A stretch of DNA of 64,000 nt, taken from the NCBI RefSeq assembly GCF_000970205.1, contig NZ_CP009512.1, forward strand, positions 1,116,001 through 1,180,000, read 5' to 3'. Under the pieces are notes generated by a model, which was given only the letters and a program-made list of their open reading frames with translations, did no database searches and was not told the origin of the DNA. The position numbers were made by a program, and so were the translations under genes. Positions 41,499 through 49,969 of this stretch are shown here, in pieces (the first letter of the stretch is position 1; every line of letters starts with the position of its first letter). This DNA is from Methanosarcina mazei S-6 (GTDB taxonomy: Archaea > Halobacteriota > Methanosarcinia > Methanosarcinales > Methanosarcinaceae).

Positions 41499-42146
41499 AT
41501 GTGGAATCGATTTATAAAAAATGATAAAGGGTTTACCGGGCTTGAAGCTGCAATAGTGCTGATAGCCTTTGTAGTCGTAGCAGCAGTTTTTAGCTACGTC
41601 ATGTTGGGAGCGGGGTTCTATACAACCCAGAAAAGCCAGGAAGTCGTGCACACCGGTGTAGCGCAGGCAAGCAGTAGCCTTGCACCTTCCGGGGATATAA
41701 TTGTATTAGGAGGAACTGATGTCGTTGCTGAGCCTGACGTTCCGGCTATAGATTCGATAACATTCTATATAACCAACACAGCAGGTGGATCAGCTGTAGA
41801 TCTTGATAAAACGATAATTACCTATACAGATCTCGATGACTTTGCAACACAAGCACACTTAGAGACTGCGGGAGTTGAGGACGGAGCATGGACTTATGAA
41901 GGAATAATTGAGACCACAACTGGTGCGTCGAACCTAGTTGAAAAGGGTGAAAAATATAAGATTGAACTCAGTCTTCTCCAAACTGGTGATACTGGTGTAC
42001 CTGATAATCCTCTTGGTCTCACTTCAAAGCCTGTAGTAAACGAAAAAGTCAAGATTGAGGTAAAACCTCCAGAAGGTGCAGTCCTTATTCTTGAAAGAAC
42101 AATGCCCCCTTCAATTACTGCTGGGCAGTATTATACAGTTTACTGA
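41499..42146 (+). CDS. arlB1: Archaellin (major archaellum filament protein) 1
   Basis: 215 residues. The class III signal peptide ends at DKG with mature sequence FTGLEAAIVLIAFVVVAAVFSYV, the hydrophobic helix that packs the filament core. It is cleaved by a prepilin-peptidase-like enzyme. The C-terminal domain is beta-rich and outward-facing. ATG with AAAGGTGAT upstream. It is followed after 11 bases by a second archaellin with a nearly identical first 55 residues. Older name flaB1. Confidence 0.93.
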   Translation: MWNRFIKNDKGFTGLEAAIVLIAFVVVAAVFSYVMLGAGFYTTQKSQEVVHTGVAQASSSLAPSGDIIVLGGTDVVAEPDVPAIDSITFYITNTAGGSAVDLDKTIITYTDLDDFATQAHLETAGVEDGAWTYEGIIETTTGASNLVEKGEKYKIELSLLQTGDTGVPDNPLGLTSKPVVNEKVKIEVKPPEGAVLILERTMPPSITAGQYYTVY

Positions 42147-42157
42147 GGTGATTCTCG

Positions 42158-42754
42158 ATGTGGAAAATGTTCTCAAAAGATGAAAAAGGATTTACCGGGC
42201 TTGAAGCTGCAATTGTTCTCGTAGCTTTTGTAGTAGTTGCTGCAGTTTTCAGCTACGTTATGCTCGGAGCAGGTTTCTATACTACTCAGAAAAGCCAGGA
42301 GGTTGTGCACACCGGTGTACAGCAAGCAAGTAGCAGTGTTGAACTGAGTGGAGATGTAGTTGCTAAAAGTGACGACGGTAATACTGAAATTGACACTGTC
42401 ACTTTATTCCTTCAATTGACTTCAGGCGGCTCTCCAGTGGATATGGCTAAAACTCTCATAGTTGTTTCAGCTCCGGATATCGAGCCAAGTGAATTGAAAC
42501 TTGGTGCTGTCGCTGATGGCGATGAATTTGCTATAGCAGCCAGATATAACGGTAATACTGATGACCTTATAGATAGGTTTGAAAAATTCCAAATAACAAT
42601 TGATTTGGATCAAGTGGCTGCTGACGCTGCTACTCCTACATCTGTTGGAGCTAATAGCGAGTTTCAGCTTGAAATCAAACCACCTCAGGGAGCAACCTAT
42701 ACCATTCACAGGACTGCACCAGCAGCAATCTCTGATATAATGACACTCGTCTAA
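42158..42754 (+). CDS. arlB2: Archaellin 2
   Basis: 198 residues with the same class III signal peptide and core helix (EKG then FTGLEAAIVLVAFVVVAAVFSYV). The N-terminal 55 residues match archaellin 1 closely and the outer domain is divergent and 17 residues shorter. GAGGTGATTCTCG upstream. Two unequal archaellins may form different filament segments; not shown by sequence. Older name flaB2. Confidence 0.93.
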   Translation: MWKMFSKDEKGFTGLEAAIVLVAFVVVAAVFSYVMLGAGFYTTQKSQEVVHTGVQQASSSVELSGDVVAKSDDGNTEIDTVTLFLQLTSGGSPVDMAKTLIVVSAPDIEPSELKLGAVADGDEFAIAARYNGNTDDLIDRFEKFQITIDLDQVAADAATPTSVGANSEFQLEIKPPQGATYTIHRTAPAAISDIMTLV

Positions 42755-42833
42755 AATTAAAATTAAAGCAATAATGACATTCCTCGGGGTGCCATTATCT
42801 TTTATTTTTTTAACGCTACAGTTGGGTGATATG

Positions 42834-43502
42834 ATGAATAGTGGGGAATCGTTTGACCAGTCCATGATTGATAAACTTGTAGCTACAGCTGAAAGCGATA
42901 CTATAGAATACAAGGTTGCAAGCCTTGAAGAAGAGGTAACCGAGATCAAAGGCTCTATAAAGACTCTTCTCATGGACATCAGGGAAACGATGGGGGTCCT
43001 GGAAAATCCTTTCCAGAATATTCAGGGTATTGCCAATATTTCCAGTGCCATAGTGAATCCAAAGTCGATGGAAGATCAGCCTCAACCTCCGAAGAATGAA
43101 GAAATCGAAGAGGAGGACGAGCCTGAAGATGAAGACCTGGAAATGGAAAAAATACCAAAAAACCTCTTTGAAGACCTGAAAAAGGCTGCTAAAAACCAGC
43201 CTAAAAGGGCTGACTCGAAACTAATTGATCCCATTTCCTTCTACAGGACCATTGTCTGGAGCAAGGACATGGTGGAGAAATATGACCAGAACGCCATAAA
43301 GGAATTAATTGAAGTGTTCTCTCTCCTGGGATATATTCCAGGTGAAATTAAGGAAATTATTGTTAAAGTCATTGAGATTCTGATCAAAAATAACAACCTT
43401 GATGATGCAGTTGTGGACCTGTACAGACTTTATCACATACTTTATCCAGAAGACATGTCTCTTGACTCCAAGGTGCTGGATCACATCCTGAATGAAAGAT
43501 AA
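42834..43502 (+). CDS. ArlD/E-type archaellum cytoplasmic ring protein
   Basis: 222 residues from ATG 42834, three bases after GGGTGAT; an upstream ATG at 42774 gives 20 extra hydrophobic residues and is less likely. An N-terminal coiled coil (about 25-55, SLEEEVTEIKGSIKTLL), a very acidic linker, and a C-terminal ArlD/E (FlaD/E-type) domain are seen (about 135-222). In euryarchaea ArlC/D/E proteins form the switch complex that receives CheF-CheY input. No separate arlC is in the window. Confidence 0.82.
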   Translation: MNSGESFDQSMIDKLVATAESDTIEYKVASLEEEVTEIKGSIKTLLMDIRETMGVLENPFQNIQGIANISSAIVNPKSMEDQPQPPKNEEIEEEDEPEDEDLEMEKIPKNLFEDLKKAAKNQPKRADSKLIDPISFYRTIVWSKDMVEKYDQNAIKELIEVFSLLGYIPGEIKEIIVKVIEILIKNNNLDDAVVDLYRLYHILYPEDMSLDSKVLDHILNER

Positions 43503-43517
43503 AACGGTGAAGAACGC

Positions 43518-43991
43518 ATGTCAAAGGAAGTGATAACTTCAGCGATACTCGTAATAGTGAGTGTAATAGCTGCAGTGGCTTTTGTTAATGCCATCCTTCC
43601 TTCTGTGTATGGTCTCTCCGAATCTTACAGTTCAGTTGCTCAGAGCATGGAAGACCAGTTCAAAACAGATATCGATATTATCTTTATCTATCCTGACGGG
43701 AACAATGTGTACGTCTGGATAAAAAATGTCGGGTCCTCAAACATACCCCTTTCACAGCTTCAATACTGTGACATCTTTATCATGTCTTCTTCAGGATACT
43801 GGAACCCGGGATTCGAATCGGAATCAAATCCCTCATGGGATTTCACGCTTGAAAATGGGGACGGAGATACCTGGGACCGCGGCGAGACTATTAAGGCATC
43901 AATAGCGATTGATACCCTGCCGGCTGACATTTACAAAATCACCTTTTTCCTTTACAACGGGGTATCGACATCAGACACGTTCTCCAGGTGA
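43518..43991 (+). CDS. ArlG-type archaellum stator protein
   Basis: 157 residues with one N-terminal membrane helix (ITSAILVIVSVIAAVAFVNAIL) and an external beta-sandwich (VWIKNVGSSNIPLSQLQYCDIF). The segment matches ArlG (FlaG) better than ArlF. ArlF/ArlG anchor the motor to the S-layer. A GGTGA ribosome site for the next gene overlaps its stop. The choice of G rather than F is moderately sure. Confidence 0.78.
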   Translation: MSKEVITSAILVIVSVIAAVAFVNAILPSVYGLSESYSSVAQSMEDQFKTDIDIIFIYPDGNNVYVWIKNVGSSNIPLSQLQYCDIFIMSSSGYWNPGFESESNPSWDFTLENGDGDTWDRGETIKASIAIDTLPADIYKITFFLYNGVSTSDTFSR

Positions 43992-43995
43992 TATC

Positions 43996-44469
43996 ATGGG
44001 CCTTGATACGATAATCGTGGCTTTCTTTGTAATCGGGACGGTTCTGGTTGTTGCAGGTACTCTGACAATGGGGACCAATAACCTTGTTGAGTCTTCTTAT
44101 CACGGATACGTCTCAGCCCATCAAAGCATGATGGACCGGCTCCAGACCCGAATTGAAATTCAGGATATAACATTCAACATTTCAACAAATCATGCGAGCT
44201 TTACGGTTGTGAATACAGGGGAGACCAGGTTACACAATTTCGACCACTGGGACATTATCCTGGTTAAAGACGGCCAGGCTTCTTACTTGAACAGGTCCGG
44301 TTACAGCATAAAGCCTGAAATAGATCTCATAAATCCCAGAATCCTGGACCCTCACGAAAGTATTAACATTGAACTCTTAACCGAGCTTGAATCCGGTGAC
44401 AGCTTCATTGTAAAGATCATCACGGAAAATGGTATCGTCTCTTCCGCAGAGCATATTGTAGGTGAGTAA
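43996..44469 (+). CDS. ArlF-type archaellum stator protein
   Basis: 157 residues from ATG 43996 (GGTGATATC upstream). One N-terminal membrane helix (IIVAFFVIGTVLVVAGTLTM) and a beta-sandwich (FTVVNTGETRLHNFDHWDIILVKDG) typical of ArlF/FlaF. ArlF binds the S-layer and works with ArlG. Its stop lies two codons before the arlH start. Confidence 0.8.
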   Translation: MGLDTIIVAFFVIGTVLVVAGTLTMGTNNLVESSYHGYVSAHQSMMDRLQTRIEIQDITFNISTNHASFTVVNTGETRLHNFDHWDIILVKDGQASYLNRSGYSIKPEIDLINPRILDPHESINIELLTELESGDSFIVKIITENGIVSSAEHIVGE

Positions 44470-45224: not shown

Positions 45225-47078
45225 ATGGATAGCATCGAGGAAAAGCTGGGTACTGAAGACGGTCATGTACTTAATGCAGGAGTATACACAAATTTTCCGT
45301 TTAAACCAAAAAAATACGACGGACATGACCATTCAAACCTGAAAACGTGTAACCTTTACAAACTCCTCCCTCCGGAAATGAAGGCGGAAGTTGAAAAAAA
45401 CCTTCATCTTCTGGAGTACCTGCATATCCTGCCCATAGATACAATGGGCATACCCAGATATGTTCCAAAGCTTGAATCCAAGCATGGTGATATAGAAGAT
45501 CCCAATCTGATATACAGGGTCAATGACCAGATATACGTCCATATTTATCCGAACAAAAACGATGTGAGGAATTTCTATATTCCTATTGAGCCCATACTTC
45601 TTACCGGAGTCGGATTTCTTATTAAAGAACTGGAAATAAAGCTTGTAGACCACCTTACAGGGATTCAATTTGATCCTGAAAATTTAGAGGAAAAAGAACG
45701 TATACTGAGAGAATCCCTGGATGCCATCTGCATAATTGGCAAAAAAAATCCGGCTGCCAGTTCTGCCGCAGGGGCTGAATCAGGGATCAAAAAACTGGGG
45801 TCACGTTTTTTCCCATCAAAGGAAGATCCTGATAAAAATCATATATACGTAACAAAAGAGCAGTATGAAGCTCTGAAATACTCGGTTATCAGGGACAAAA
45901 TCGGTGTCGGTTTTCTTGACCCTTACATAAATGACAACAAAATTGAAGATATAACCTGTAATGGTCTCGGGCCCATCTTTATTGAACACAAGGTGTTCAA
46001 GGGTCTCAGGAGCGTTATAGAATTCAATGACAACGACGCCCTCAATCATTACATTGTCAGGCTTGCAGAAAGGATAGGAAAGCCCATCACTTTCAAAAAC
46101 CCTATAGTTGACTCCACACTCCCGGACGGGTCAAGGATTAACATTGTTTTTGGGGACGATATCAGTAAAAACGGGAGTAATTTCACTATACGTAAATTCG
46201 CTGACATTCCTTTCAGCATCCTTCAGGTCATAAAAGGAGGGACTCTGGATTACAGGATGGCAGCTTATCTCTGGATCCTGATTGGTGAAGGAATGAGCGG
46301 TTTCATATGCGGAGAAACCGCCAGTGGTAAGACGACCACATTGAACGGAATTACAGCTTTTGTAAACCCCGAGTCAAAACTGGTTTCAATCGAAGACACG
46401 CCCGAACTGCAGATTCCTCACAAAAACTGGACCCGGGAAACAACAAGAGGCAGTACAAGGGGTGCAGGAACCGGAGAAGGCAGCGGTTCGGATGTTACAA
46501 TGTTCGACCTTCTCAAAGCAGCATTGAGGCAGAGGCCAAACTATATCCTTGTGGGAGAAATCCGAGGAGTTGAAGGTAATGTCGCATTCCAGGCTATGCA
46601 GACCGGCCATCCTGTTATGTCAACGTTCCACGCCGCAACCGTTGAGAAACTGATCCAGAGGCTTACTGCTGATCCTATAAACATTCCTAAAACGTATGTG
46701 GACAACCTCAACTTTGTTATAATCCAGTCTGCTGTCCGGAGACCTGACGGCAAGCTTGTGAGGAGAGTCCTCAGTATAAATGAGGTTCTCGGATACAACC
46801 CGGATAAAGGGGGAATTTCCTTTATTGAAGCTTTTTCCTGGGATCCTGTTACTGATACACATGTTTTCAGTGCTATGGGAAGTTCTTATATCCTTGAGAA
46901 TAAAATCGCCACAAGGCTTGGAATTCCGGGTAAGAAAAAGAAAGCAATTTATGATGAGATTGAAAAACGGGCAAAAATTCTGGAAAGACTGAGCGATGAA
47001 GGAATTGTAAACTACTGGGAATTTTTTAACACAATCGCAAAGATTACAAAGTCCGGTATGCTGAGGATTCAGTTCTAA
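45225..47078 (+). CDS. arlI: ArlI, archaellum assembly and rotation ATPase
   Basis: 617 residues of the GspE/VirB11-type secretion ATPase superfamily. Walker A GETASGKTTT near residue 365, an Asp box (SIEDTPELQIPHKNW), Walker B ILVGEIRG and a His box (MSTFHAATVE) are all present. It powers both filament assembly and rotation as a hexamer. A large N-terminal domain of about 220 residues is longer than in many homologues. GGGGTTGAC precedes ATG 45225. Confidence 0.94.
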   Translation: MDSIEEKLGTEDGHVLNAGVYTNFPFKPKKYDGHDHSNLKTCNLYKLLPPEMKAEVEKNLHLLEYLHILPIDTMGIPRYVPKLESKHGDIEDPNLIYRVNDQIYVHIYPNKNDVRNFYIPIEPILLTGVGFLIKELEIKLVDHLTGIQFDPENLEEKERILRESLDAICIIGKKNPAASSAAGAESGIKKLGSRFFPSKEDPDKNHIYVTKEQYEALKYSVIRDKIGVGFLDPYINDNKIEDITCNGLGPIFIEHKVFKGLRSVIEFNDNDALNHYIVRLAERIGKPITFKNPIVDSTLPDGSRINIVFGDDISKNGSNFTIRKFADIPFSILQVIKGGTLDYRMAAYLWILIGEGMSGFICGETASGKTTTLNGITAFVNPESKLVSIEDTPELQIPHKNWTRETTRGSTRGAGTGEGSGSDVTMFDLLKAALRQRPNYILVGEIRGVEGNVAFQAMQTGHPVMSTFHAATVEKLIQRLTADPINIPKTYVDNLNFVIIQSAVRRPDGKLVRRVLSINEVLGYNPDKGGISFIEAFSWDPVTDTHVFSAMGSSYILENKIATRLGIPGKKKKAIYDEIEKRAKILERLSDEGIVNYWEFFNTIAKITKSGMLRIQF

Positions 47079-47090
47079 ATGGTGGTTTAG

Positions 47091-48716
47091 ATGGGTGTCA
47101 ATAAGATAAAAAACATTTTTAGCAAAAAGTCTAATTCAGGATCCATTTTAGACCAGCTTTATGTTAAATATCAAGACTACCAGAAAGAACTCTATATGAG
47201 CAATGATATGCTTTTTGCTCTTACTTATATGGCTTCAATCTCGACTGCCAATCTTACAAGGGACAAAATATTCTCAAGCATATCTGGAAAGAAAGAGTAC
47301 TGCCCAAGCAAATATTTTAACCTGATTAAAGAGCTGGCTCAGCACTGGCATTATGATTACGCCAATGCCTGTGAGCTTATATCCACAAAAGTAAAGCATG
47401 ACAGGATGAGGGAACTTCTCAACAGGCTGTCAAACGCCATAGCGGCAGGAGAACCTGATAGTGAATTTCTCACCAAGGAATGGAGACTATTCAAGACAAA
47501 AAGAAAAGATGAGTTCGAAAGAGACCTTGATACCACGAAAGAATGGTCAAACGCATACACAGCATTGCTTGTCTCCACATCGCTTGTAGCTATAATTATA
47601 CTGCTTTCAGTGATTTTATACAATATCGGGGATCCGGCTGATACGCTTTATTCCACAATGTTTATCATATTTTTTATGGCCTTCTTTGGAGTAGGCCTGC
47701 TTTTTAGATGTTCTCCAAAAGACACTAAAGTCCATAATTTAAGTGTAAAATCAAAAGAGCAGACTTATATTTATAAGTGGGCTCCTCTTACACTTGTTAT
47801 CGCAGCCCTGGCTGTTTTATTGCTAACTGTTCTGCCGGCTTTCACCGGTTCAGCTGCTGATTTCTTTATTGATATTAAAGGAGTCGGGATGATTGTTGCA
47901 GGAGTTACCATGATTCCTGTAGGGATTGCGGCAAAAAGAGATATTGAAAAAATTAACAAAAGGGATGAAAGTTATACAACTTTCATAAGAAGCCTCGGGT
48001 CTATTATAAGTGGGTCCGGTCTGACTGTTCCAAAAGCTCTTTTAAAGATTGACCCCAAGAACCTTGGAGAGCTTAAAGATATGAGCCAGGAGCTTTATAA
48101 GAAACTGGCATCCGGGCTGGACCCTGCCCTTTGCTGGGGGAGATTTGTCGGAGAAACGGGCAGTTATTTGATCTACAAATTTACAAGCGTTTTTGTGGAC
48201 GCTGTCAATTTCGGAGGTAATGCAGAAGTGGTAGGCGAGCTCGTGAGCTCGTCAAACCTTGAACTTGTCCTTCTGAGAATGAAAAGAGAACGCATAGCCA
48301 AAGGATTTTCCAGTCTTGTTATTCCTCTCCATGTATCGATGGTTGGCCTTCTTCTTTTCATAGGGCAGATCCTTACTATCTTTTCAACCATTATAAATTC
48401 CCTTTTTACCCAGTTTGAAATAAACGGTTCCGAACTCGAGGGCATACCCGGTGGCATGGGTGGCATGAATATGGGCATATTCGGGGGTGTCCCCCTCGAA
48501 TTGCTGGGGCAATTTGTTGTGATAGTTACTATTATTCTAACAATTGCCAACCTACTTGCGATCGTTGCCGTAAAAGGAGGACCGATGTACCTGGCGATCT
48601 ACTATGGTATATTTATGTTCATACTTTCGGGAATACTGATGATTATAGTCCCTCCGTTAGTGGAAATGGCCTTTTCATTTAATGGAGTACTCGATAGTCT
48701 AGCAGAAGGTATGTGA
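47091..48716 (+). CDS. arlJ: ArlJ, archaellum platform membrane protein
   Basis: 541 residues, a TadC/GspF-like platform protein with hydrophobic segments near residues 160-215, 235-290 and 400-535. Cytoplasmic loops between them would contact ArlI. The last hydrophobic part contains a Met/Gly-rich loop (GIPGGMGGMNMG). It completes the core motor. Confidence 0.92.
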   Translation: MGVNKIKNIFSKKSNSGSILDQLYVKYQDYQKELYMSNDMLFALTYMASISTANLTRDKIFSSISGKKEYCPSKYFNLIKELAQHWHYDYANACELISTKVKHDRMRELLNRLSNAIAAGEPDSEFLTKEWRLFKTKRKDEFERDLDTTKEWSNAYTALLVSTSLVAIIILLSVILYNIGDPADTLYSTMFIIFFMAFFGVGLLFRCSPKDTKVHNLSVKSKEQTYIYKWAPLTLVIAALAVLLLTVLPAFTGSAADFFIDIKGVGMIVAGVTMIPVGIAAKRDIEKINKRDESYTTFIRSLGSIISGSGLTVPKALLKIDPKNLGELKDMSQELYKKLASGLDPALCWGRFVGETGSYLIYKFTSVFVDAVNFGGNAEVVGELVSSSNLELVLLRMKRERIAKGFSSLVIPLHVSMVGLLLFIGQILTIFSTIINSLFTQFEINGSELEGIPGGMGGMNMGIFGGVPLELLGQFVVIVTIILTIANLLAIVAVKGGPMYLAIYYGIFMFILSGILMIIVPPLVEMAFSFNGVLDSLAEGM

Positions 48717-48717
48717 T

Positions 48718-49689
48718 ATGGATTTAATAACTATATACGAAACAAATTTTACAATATTCATAGGTATTTTTGTAACTCTGGCTGTAATGGGGACAACAAC
48801 TCTATACGATAGATATGAAAGTAAAGGAGGAGCCTCATTCGATCTTATGAAAATTAAACTCTTTTCGAATCAGAACCAGCAAACAGCAGCTTTCGGCTCT
48901 AAAAGTTTGAAACAGTTTTCTGATTACAGTAAAAAATTTAGCAGTTTAATCCTGAATAAGTCCATCTCAGGTCAGGAAAAGTCCAGTTCAATGAAGAAAA
49001 AATCCACCTCAATCCGGAGTAACTCCAATAATAATTCCTTCGAAAGAGTGGAAAAAATACTCTTTAAAGCAAAAGATGCTGTTCAGAATCTTTTTGTTAA
49101 CCTCCGCAGTAAAACTTTATCCCTTTCATCAGCTTTACCCCGCAGAAGCAGTAAAGATAAGGAAAAATTTGTTTCTTTATCTGATACCCAGAAAGCAGAT
49201 CTAAATTTCAGTGCTGCTGACAAAGCTAACACTCTTGATAAAGTAGTCGAATCCAAAAAAGATGAATTAGATTTTGATGACGACCTTCTAACTAAAATGT
49301 CTACTTCAGACACTTTAACAGTCAGCAGTCCTGAACTTAAGACTGTAGAGCCGTCTCTTGGTGGTATGTCTCTGGATCTAGATGCATCATTTGATACCGA
49401 TTTTAAGTTAGATGAAAATGAATTTGCGATTAAAGTTGATGGACTGGATGATGAACCTGATGAAAATAACTTCAAATTTAGCGGGAACACTGAAGAAATA
49501 AAGTTTGGTGACGAAAGTGATAATTTCTTAGCTTCACTGAAGAAAGATATCATAATTAAAAAAGAGAAAACGATCAATTTCATGGATAATATGCAGGGAG
49601 AAAATCTGGATTTGAAGCTGATGAAATCCGACCTTGAATGTGTTCTCAAGGACCTTAAAAAGTACAGACAGTATTCACATCGAAACTGA
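48718..49689 (+). CDS. Unassigned archaellum-operon protein with one N-terminal membrane helix
   Basis: I do not recognise a family. 323 residues start two bases after arlJ, so it is almost certainly cotranscribed. Residues about 8-30 form one membrane helix (NFTIFIGIFVTLAVMGTTTLY). Then comes a long, mostly cytoplasmic region rich in Ser and Lys (about 55-160), an acidic segment (about 175-275, repeated DxDFD/LDxD patterns), and a short terminal helix. The topology recalls crenarchaeal ArlX (one membrane helix plus a long soluble tail) but I see no sequence identity. Possible motor-scaffold component. Confidence 0.72.
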   Translation: MDLITIYETNFTIFIGIFVTLAVMGTTTLYDRYESKGGASFDLMKIKLFSNQNQQTAAFGSKSLKQFSDYSKKFSSLILNKSISGQEKSSSMKKKSTSIRSNSNNNSFERVEKILFKAKDAVQNLFVNLRSKTLSLSSALPRRSSKDKEKFVSLSDTQKADLNFSAADKANTLDKVVESKKDELDFDDDLLTKMSTSDTLTVSSPELKTVEPSLGGMSLDLDASFDTDFKLDENEFAIKVDGLDDEPDENNFKFSGNTEEIKFGDESDNFLASLKKDIIIKKEKTINFMDNMQGENLDLKLMKSDLECVLKDLKKYRQYSHRN

Positions 49690-49789
49690 TCAATCGTTTA
49701 TTCTGATACAGAATAAATTGCCGTACTTCTAGCTAATATTCCAATTTTAAAAAAAATAATTTGTAGAAAAACAAAGCGAGTGATGAAAA

Positions 49790-49969
49790 ATGGTAGACGC
49801 AAAATACATAGGACTTATAATTTTAGCAGTATTTTCAGGATCAATGCTGGTGTACACCTGGCTGTCCCTTTATAACCGGTTTGATCCAAGCGTAATGTTT
49901 TATGCAGCGCTTCTTATCTTTTCTTTTTCTCTAATGCTGGTAAGAGGCAAAACATCAGAAACTAATTAA
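49790..49969 (+). CDS. Small two-helix membrane protein at the end of the archaellum operon
   Basis: 59 residues with two predicted membrane helices (about residues 6-24 and 33-50) and a short charged tail. ATG 49790 has AGTGATGAA just upstream. It follows the unassigned gene by 100 bases on the same strand. No family is recognised; its position suggests, but does not prove, an archaellum role. Confidence 0.6.
   Translation: MVDAKYIGLIILAVFSGSMLVYTWLSLYNRFDPSVMFYAALLIFSFSLMLVRGKTSETN

Follow-up and report, generated by a model that had tools for sequence, protein, structure and literature searches.

The gene directly behind arlJ in the archaellum operon of Methanosarcina mazei S-6, here called X, is a member of a conserved, previously unnamed and mostly membrane-anchored protein family that travels with fla2-type archaella. 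With modest confidence, we regard X as a part of euryarchaeal fla2 archaella that has so far escaped notice and that probably tethers the cytoplasmic motor to the membrane, and the small protein Y encoded behind it as tied to the same locus. Both genes lie in the window, that is, the whole stretch of 64,000 nucleotides that was analysed, and X is best explained as closing the archaellum operon proper.

The archaellum locus and its last genes

The operon of the window, in which cheD and cheR lie upstream of the archaellins, contains the following features:

41499..42146, + strand: arlB1 (Pfam Arch_flagellin)
42158..42754, + strand: arlB2 (Pfam Arch_flagellin)
42774..43502, + strand: short diverged ArlCDE-type protein, without an arl family match in Pfam and tied to canonical ArlCDE via fla2B only
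43518..43991, + strand: arlG (Arch_flagellin)
43909..44469, + strand: arlF (Arch_flagellin at 29.1 bits, just below the 29.5 cut-off; the G–F order is that of fla2, PMC1914349)
44462..45187, + strand: arlH (Pfam KaiC ATPase)
45225..47078, + strand: arlI ATPase (Pfam T2SSE)
47091..48716, + strand: arlJ, platform protein (Pfam T2SSF), used as synteny anchor
48718..49689, + strand: X, 323-residue post-ArlJ protein (family: homologues in 17 of 111 genomes; phylum: profile matches in 111 of 392 genomes)
48724..48822, + strand: X residues 3–35, predicted N-terminal transmembrane helix (hydropathy; AlphaFold2)
49249..49305, + strand: X residues 178–196, conserved middle motif ESKKDELDFDDDLLTKMST (alignment, invariant columns)
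49510..49665, + strand: X residues 265–316, C-terminal helical segment defining the family (profile searches; AlphaFold2)
49778..49785, + strand: gagtgatg, a ribosome-binding-like stretch ahead of Y that 8 sequences of the genus conserve
49790..49969, + strand: Y, 59-residue two-helix hairpin protein (open frame, family homologues, selection, AlphaFold2)

The real start of arlF is probably the ATG at 43996. The start of the ArlCDE-type frame at 42774 is probably too early as well; its relatives start near MMNSGESFDQ, making a position around 42831 the likelier one. A single base separates the stop codon of arlJ from the ATG of X, 100 bases lie between X and Y, and an aminoacyl-tRNA synthetase-like gene comes after Y.

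An order with arlG before arlF is diagnostic of the fla2 (arl2) type (Desmond et al. 2007, PMC1914349), and because the window has this order together with two archaellin genes, its cluster fits fla2A. The best relatives of the window arlJ outside its own family are found in family f10 (48–61% identity), with those in f13 and f15 reaching up to 43% each. We infer f10 to be Archaeoglobaceae, and f9, f17 and f26–f28 to be Methanomicrobiales; it is via this assignment that the window also has the third fla2A feature, relatedness to the Archaeoglobus cluster. A second archaellum cluster in the same genome, with one archaellin and its arlJ at G000:C1:1060148-1061593, matches fla2B.

Both X and Y were confirmed as real genes. 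An earlier note on this DNA had described a 323-residue protein just after arlJ followed by one of 59 residues, and the two frames were found there, conserved and under purifying selection. For X, dN/dS was 0.22–0.48 in 14 of 16 comparisons, the other two being saturated. Purifying selection on Y was strong: of 14 comparisons three were saturated, and the other 11 gave dN/dS of about 0.035–0.09. These ratios were computed by hand from printed, rounded dN and dS values, leaving aside the G085 copy because its start differs. Neither protein gave a match above cut-off in Pfam or NCBIfam, and X had none among solved structures. No name for the gene after flaJ in euryarchaeal fla2 clusters was found in a literature search that covered listings and text excerpts, although an arCOG or other entry may exist; the only post-flaJ gene named in the excerpts found was arnR1 of S. 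acidocaldarius, a regulator.

The single membrane helix that had been read at the N-terminus of X was borne out, with one N-terminal hydrophobic region in all 17 X proteins of the window's family by hydropathy and a helix over residues 3–35 in the AlphaFold2 model. Among post-ArlJ proteins of other loci this stretch is longer or double in L139, L140, L148, L150, L151, L153 and L155. By the positive-inside rule, the N-terminus would lie outside the cell and the C-terminus inside. The model of X is mostly of low confidence (mean pLDDT 46.8), its helices on conserved parts being residues 3–35, 266–279 and 296–322, and its best block (pLDDT 73) coincides with the C-terminal segment. The tail is charged and mostly poorly conserved, with the exception of the middle motif and the C-terminus of about 50 residues, and judging from the model it may be disordered or flexible. 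The f10 homologues carry a similar motif, by eye of the form xxNLLEEMETA, and the C-terminus of X looks like a docking element.

Distribution of the post-ArlJ family

Within the window's family, X was present in 17 of 111 genomes, and a fla2A-type arlJ (64–100% identity) in the identical 17, adjoining X in every one of them, while an arlJ-like gene of any type occurred in 80 of the 111. The assignment of X to the archaellum locus made in the earlier note is thus upheld. Its suggestion that X and Y might be specific to Methanosarcina did not stand, as homologues of X are encoded behind arlJ in numerous further families of the phylum and Y, too, has relatives elsewhere. A profile of X C-termini from the window's family only found post-arlJ proteins in other families, with E values down to 1.6e-16, and after iteration a match was obtained in 36 of 43 archaellum loci examined, including a fragment in L112. 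Twenty shuffled sets together gave 2 matches at E<=0.01 (best 0.0041), compared to 27 in the real set. One iterative match, L124_3685, was rejected as a false positive; it sits in the gene after X, at a locus that already has a proper X match.

The phylum was searched with a 52-row profile of the X C-terminus, which scored only candidates passing a loose first look in the 392 genomes and returned 114 matches in 111 of them (the window X scored E=2.6e-25 against its own family profile, being itself in the alignment). Of these, 106 are found on the strand of an arlJ and at most 3 kb downstream of it, a weak one in G401 (E=0.0019) included. This search covered orthologues away from archaellum loci, which would have counted against the proposed link, and the eight matches not called beside arlJ were read individually. 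Two (G448 and G265) are behind arlJ fragments at contig edges, and in G365 (L189:5604-6260) X is relocated to between arlH and arlI of one operon. The G512 match lies at the edge of a contig and the gene after it is CheF-like by eye, and G459 (L192) has a second, short X copy inside a cluster that by eye is che-like. The remaining three (G441, G463 and the second match of G262; E 0.0016–0.009) showed no arl gene in the surroundings that were read and were treated as chance matches.

Seen from the arlJ side, 144 genes were listed at E<=1e-38, 141 of them fla2-like, and 38 of the 144 had no X call nearby. Fourteen of the 38 are fla2B genes of the window's family, all with an open frame of the fla2B post-arlJ gene (X2), three (G356, G337 and G035) are of low identity and fla1-like, and G365 and G512 are accounted for by X elsewhere in the operon and by the contig edge, respectively. 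This leaves 19 of the 141 fla2-like arlJ genes, 18 in f11 and one in f29, for which the missing X call is unexplained; three of the f11 loci and the f29 locus were read, and behind arlJ they have just a short dissimilar protein. Of the seven loci missed by the iterated profile, L141–L143 (f11) and L156 (f29) have only the short dissimilar protein, L122 is the G365 locus, L157 is a low-identity fla1-like control, and L154 (G314) later gave a match at E=1.2e-8 in a separate 132-residue frame 2.9 kb downstream. In most f11 loci, X has either been lost or diverged beyond these profiles. The short post-arlJ protein of f11 loci, for instance L141:1572-1982, is acidic and by eye similar to X2, though missed by the profiles. 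Separately, the post-ArlJ gene is broken or split across two frames in L083 (G009) and L149 (G285). At all nine fla1-type (type-3) loci read, L089–L097, the next displayed gene of at least 90 residues after arlJ is on the opposite strand, so that arlJ closes these operons; L093 holds both types.

Of the 21 fla2B loci found, 20 were examined and all have a gene behind arlJ, with an open frame in 19 and a broken one in L083; the twenty-first (L058) also has a post-arlJ gene. None of the 19 X2 proteins has a predicted transmembrane helix, so a tether at these loci would need another kind of membrane binding. In profile comparisons, X2 aligned with the X C-terminus at P=1.1e-4 (best of 13 controls 0.039) and with the wider X family at P=4.8e-6 (13 control profiles at P>=0.11). 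Bridging sequences were found in both directions. Among 4675 open reading frames, a fla2B profile built without L085 recovered L085 (9.6e-10), L083 (6.6e-9) and L110 (1.8e-6), as well as L112, L111 and L113 at 5.8e-5 to 3.6e-4, while an X family profile built without the bridge sequences found L085 at 7e-5 and L083 at 8e-5. Taken one by one, 18 of the 19 fla2B proteins escaped the family profile and on average scored lower than their shuffles; a single-sequence tie works for L085 (20.5 bits, best of shuffles 10.8) and the broken L083 and fails for the other 18. Since most are not detected singly, the link rests on the profile comparison and the bridge sequences, which connect X2 to X as a putative diverged homologue.

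The small protein Y

The two-helix character proposed for Y was recovered in its AlphaFold2 model, which forms a hairpin of helices 4–30 and 33–57 (mean pLDDT 76.1). Y was found in 16 of the 17 X-bearing genomes of the family, being absent from G033, and partial matches were obtained in G083 and G092, where a fla2A arlJ was not found. Both partial matches are 5'-truncated remnants (L107:6236-6445 in G083, L106:59-202 in G092) and adjoin an 869-residue opposite-strand gene that by eye resembles the synthetase-like gene after Y in the window. Only G083 is a clean case, because G092 is an incomplete draft with its Y at a contig start. The occurrence of Y remnants where the fla2A arlJ is missing supports a tie of Y to fla2A.

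A Y profile matched 58 of the 392 genomes of the phylum, 45 of them in f10. Of the 16 loci read, six encode short forms (52–75 residues) beside arl genes (L174, L175, L176, L181 and L184) or, by eye, che-like genes (L171), and one further short form (L173) had no arl or che-like gene in view. The other nine (L169, L170, L172, L177–L180, L182 and L183) encode longer Y-like forms of 105–160 residues, away from arl and che genes. With short forms mostly at arl or che-like genes and longer ones elsewhere, Y looks like the short, archaellum-linked offshoot of a broader family of membrane proteins, and it probably serves as an accessory to the motor or to the link between motor and chemosensory system. 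The longer forms have two helices and a coiled-coil-like tail ending in YR, and five of them adjoin a gene that is FEN1-like by eye; one is also present in G257, a genome without a listed archaellum arlJ.

Possible function of X and its relation to ArlCDE and ArlX

Judged from published descriptions, the layout of X resembles that of the crenarchaeal ArlX (FlaX), which likewise has one N-terminal membrane helix, a cytosolic remainder and a gene in the archaellum operon; a ring of about 30 nm that binds ArlI/ArlH is a further trait of ArlX. ArlX is described as membrane-tethered, interacting with ArlH and ArlI and stabilised by ArlJ (PMC8978795, PMC12024892). The likeness does not extend to gene position, since the S. 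acidocaldarius unit reads flaX-J (PMC4307647) with ArlX at its start, whereas X comes after arlJ; moreover, X is mostly low-confidence in AlphaFold2 and its locus additionally has an ArlCDE-type protein. In the mechanism that we propose, the N-terminal helix would hold X in the membrane, probably beside ArlJ, from where the long, flexible, charged tail would extend into the cytosol. ArlH/ArlI, or the short ArlCDE ring with CheF, may be where the conserved C-terminal helices dock, perhaps together with the middle motif, and X could thereby tether the cytoplasmic ring, acting like ArlX. Both the docking partners and the tether function are inferred. Because a membrane tether is reported to be absent from ArlCDE (PMC12024892) and present in ArlX (PMC8978795, PMC12024892), the tether role is the most economical reading, and a scaffold role of X, as the earlier note had envisaged beside a single ArlD/E-type protein, is plausible.

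The neighbouring genes admit a different function. The gene after X matches CheF in L140 and L148, the two loci tested outside f10, and encodes a HisKA protein in the f10 loci L174 (L174:2796-3470) and L121 (L121:160-831). The usual HisKA motif is SHELRT; by eye, the histidine reads as aspartate in the f10 proteins (ADRLRN), which are perhaps dead kinase relatives. CheF is an adaptor reported to bind ArlCDE (PMC9126983). X might accordingly be a chemotaxis adaptor, its tail connecting the motor with CheF/CheY or with the chemosensory array and serving switching rather than assembly or anchoring, and the second short X copy in the che-like cluster of L192, as well as cheD and cheR upstream in the window, would agree with this. 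We nevertheless hold it to be unlikely, as X lies within the arl operon right behind arlJ, or between arlH and arlI in G365, and the gene after it in the window is Y and not a che gene. Together with the CheF neighbours in two non-f10 loci, the G365 arrangement suggests a place for X on the cytoplasmic side of the motor.

The tight coupling of X to arlJ, one base apart in the window and behind arlJ in 106 of 114 matches, would also fit an assembly or stability factor for ArlJ or the archaellins that stays outside the running motor. Such dependence has a precedent, given that ArlJ is unstable without ArlX (PMC8978795), but the long tail with its conserved distal end suggests a cytoplasmic partner, and we rate this explanation as improbable.

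A further explanation is true orthology of X to ArlX or to ArlC/D/E, hidden by extreme divergence. X has the ArlX layout by published description, and a census reports that only more sensitive methods joined ArlX to FlaC/D/E (PMC4858521). ArlC/D/E (PF05377, FlaC_arch; PF04659, Arch_fla_DE) resemble X as cytoplasmic, motor-associated accessory proteins of euryarchaeal archaella, but are described without a membrane helix. No similarity between X and ArlCDE was seen in 15 profile comparisons (X, X C-terminus, X2, X2 C-terminus and the family, each against three ArlCDE sets): the best, X2 C-terminus against fla2B ArlCDE, gave P=0.022 (Prob 2.2%) and the rest P 0.11 or worse, including 0.19 for the X C-terminus and 0.17 for the family profile against type-3 ArlCDE. 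A likeness by eye between the C-termini of X and canonical ArlCDE was dropped (15 columns, P=0.19). X matches no Pfam family, PF05377 and PF04659 included, and a genome search with PF04659 gave two matches below cut-off, neither at X; in two type-3 loci with ArlCDE that were scanned, both domains were present. X also shares its locus with the short ArlCDE-type protein upstream of arlG, presumably the single ArlD/E-type protein of the earlier note. This identity was sustained by way of fla2B, the window protein matching the fla2B ArlCDE-type at P=1.6e-17 and the latter the canonical fla1 ArlCDE at P=4.7e-6; a direct link to canonical ArlCDE was not obtained, with just P=0.0066 on a non-matching stretch. 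We rate hidden orthology of X as very unlikely. The hyp1 and hyp2 genes of Desmond et al. (2007) are, like X and Y, uncharacterised genes of fla2A/fla2B clusters, but they are located between flaB and flaG and were described as distant FlaD, whereas X and Y come after flaJ; the text excerpts of that paper, figures with further hypothetical genes aside, name no gene after flaJ (PMC1914349).

That X and Y are bystanders merely following the operon is barely credible and for X already disfavoured, because the 100-base gap between them and the longer Y-like proteins elsewhere in f10 genomes are outweighed by the one-to-one co-occurrence of X with the fla2A arlJ, the adjacency kept across many families, the purifying selection and the truncation of Y where fla2A is missing.

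The tether reading of X can be extended, tentatively, to the post-ArlJ family as a whole, which would then be a core fla2 component, a membrane tether and possibly a stator part holding a ring for which ArlCDE alone provides no anchor, and whose fla2B form would act via a membrane-binding N-terminus; we see this broader proposal as a possibility somewhat short of even chances. M. acetivorans, whose archaella require FlaB1/FlaB2, is genetically tractable (PMC8546582). According to a 2025 review, it is open which archaellum parts rotate and which stay static, and one rotation model requires a structure, placed between ArlI and the stator, that serves as an anchor (PMC12024892). The X family, being mostly membrane-anchored and encoded directly behind 106 of the 141 listed fla2-like arlJ genes, offers a concrete candidate for such an anchor.
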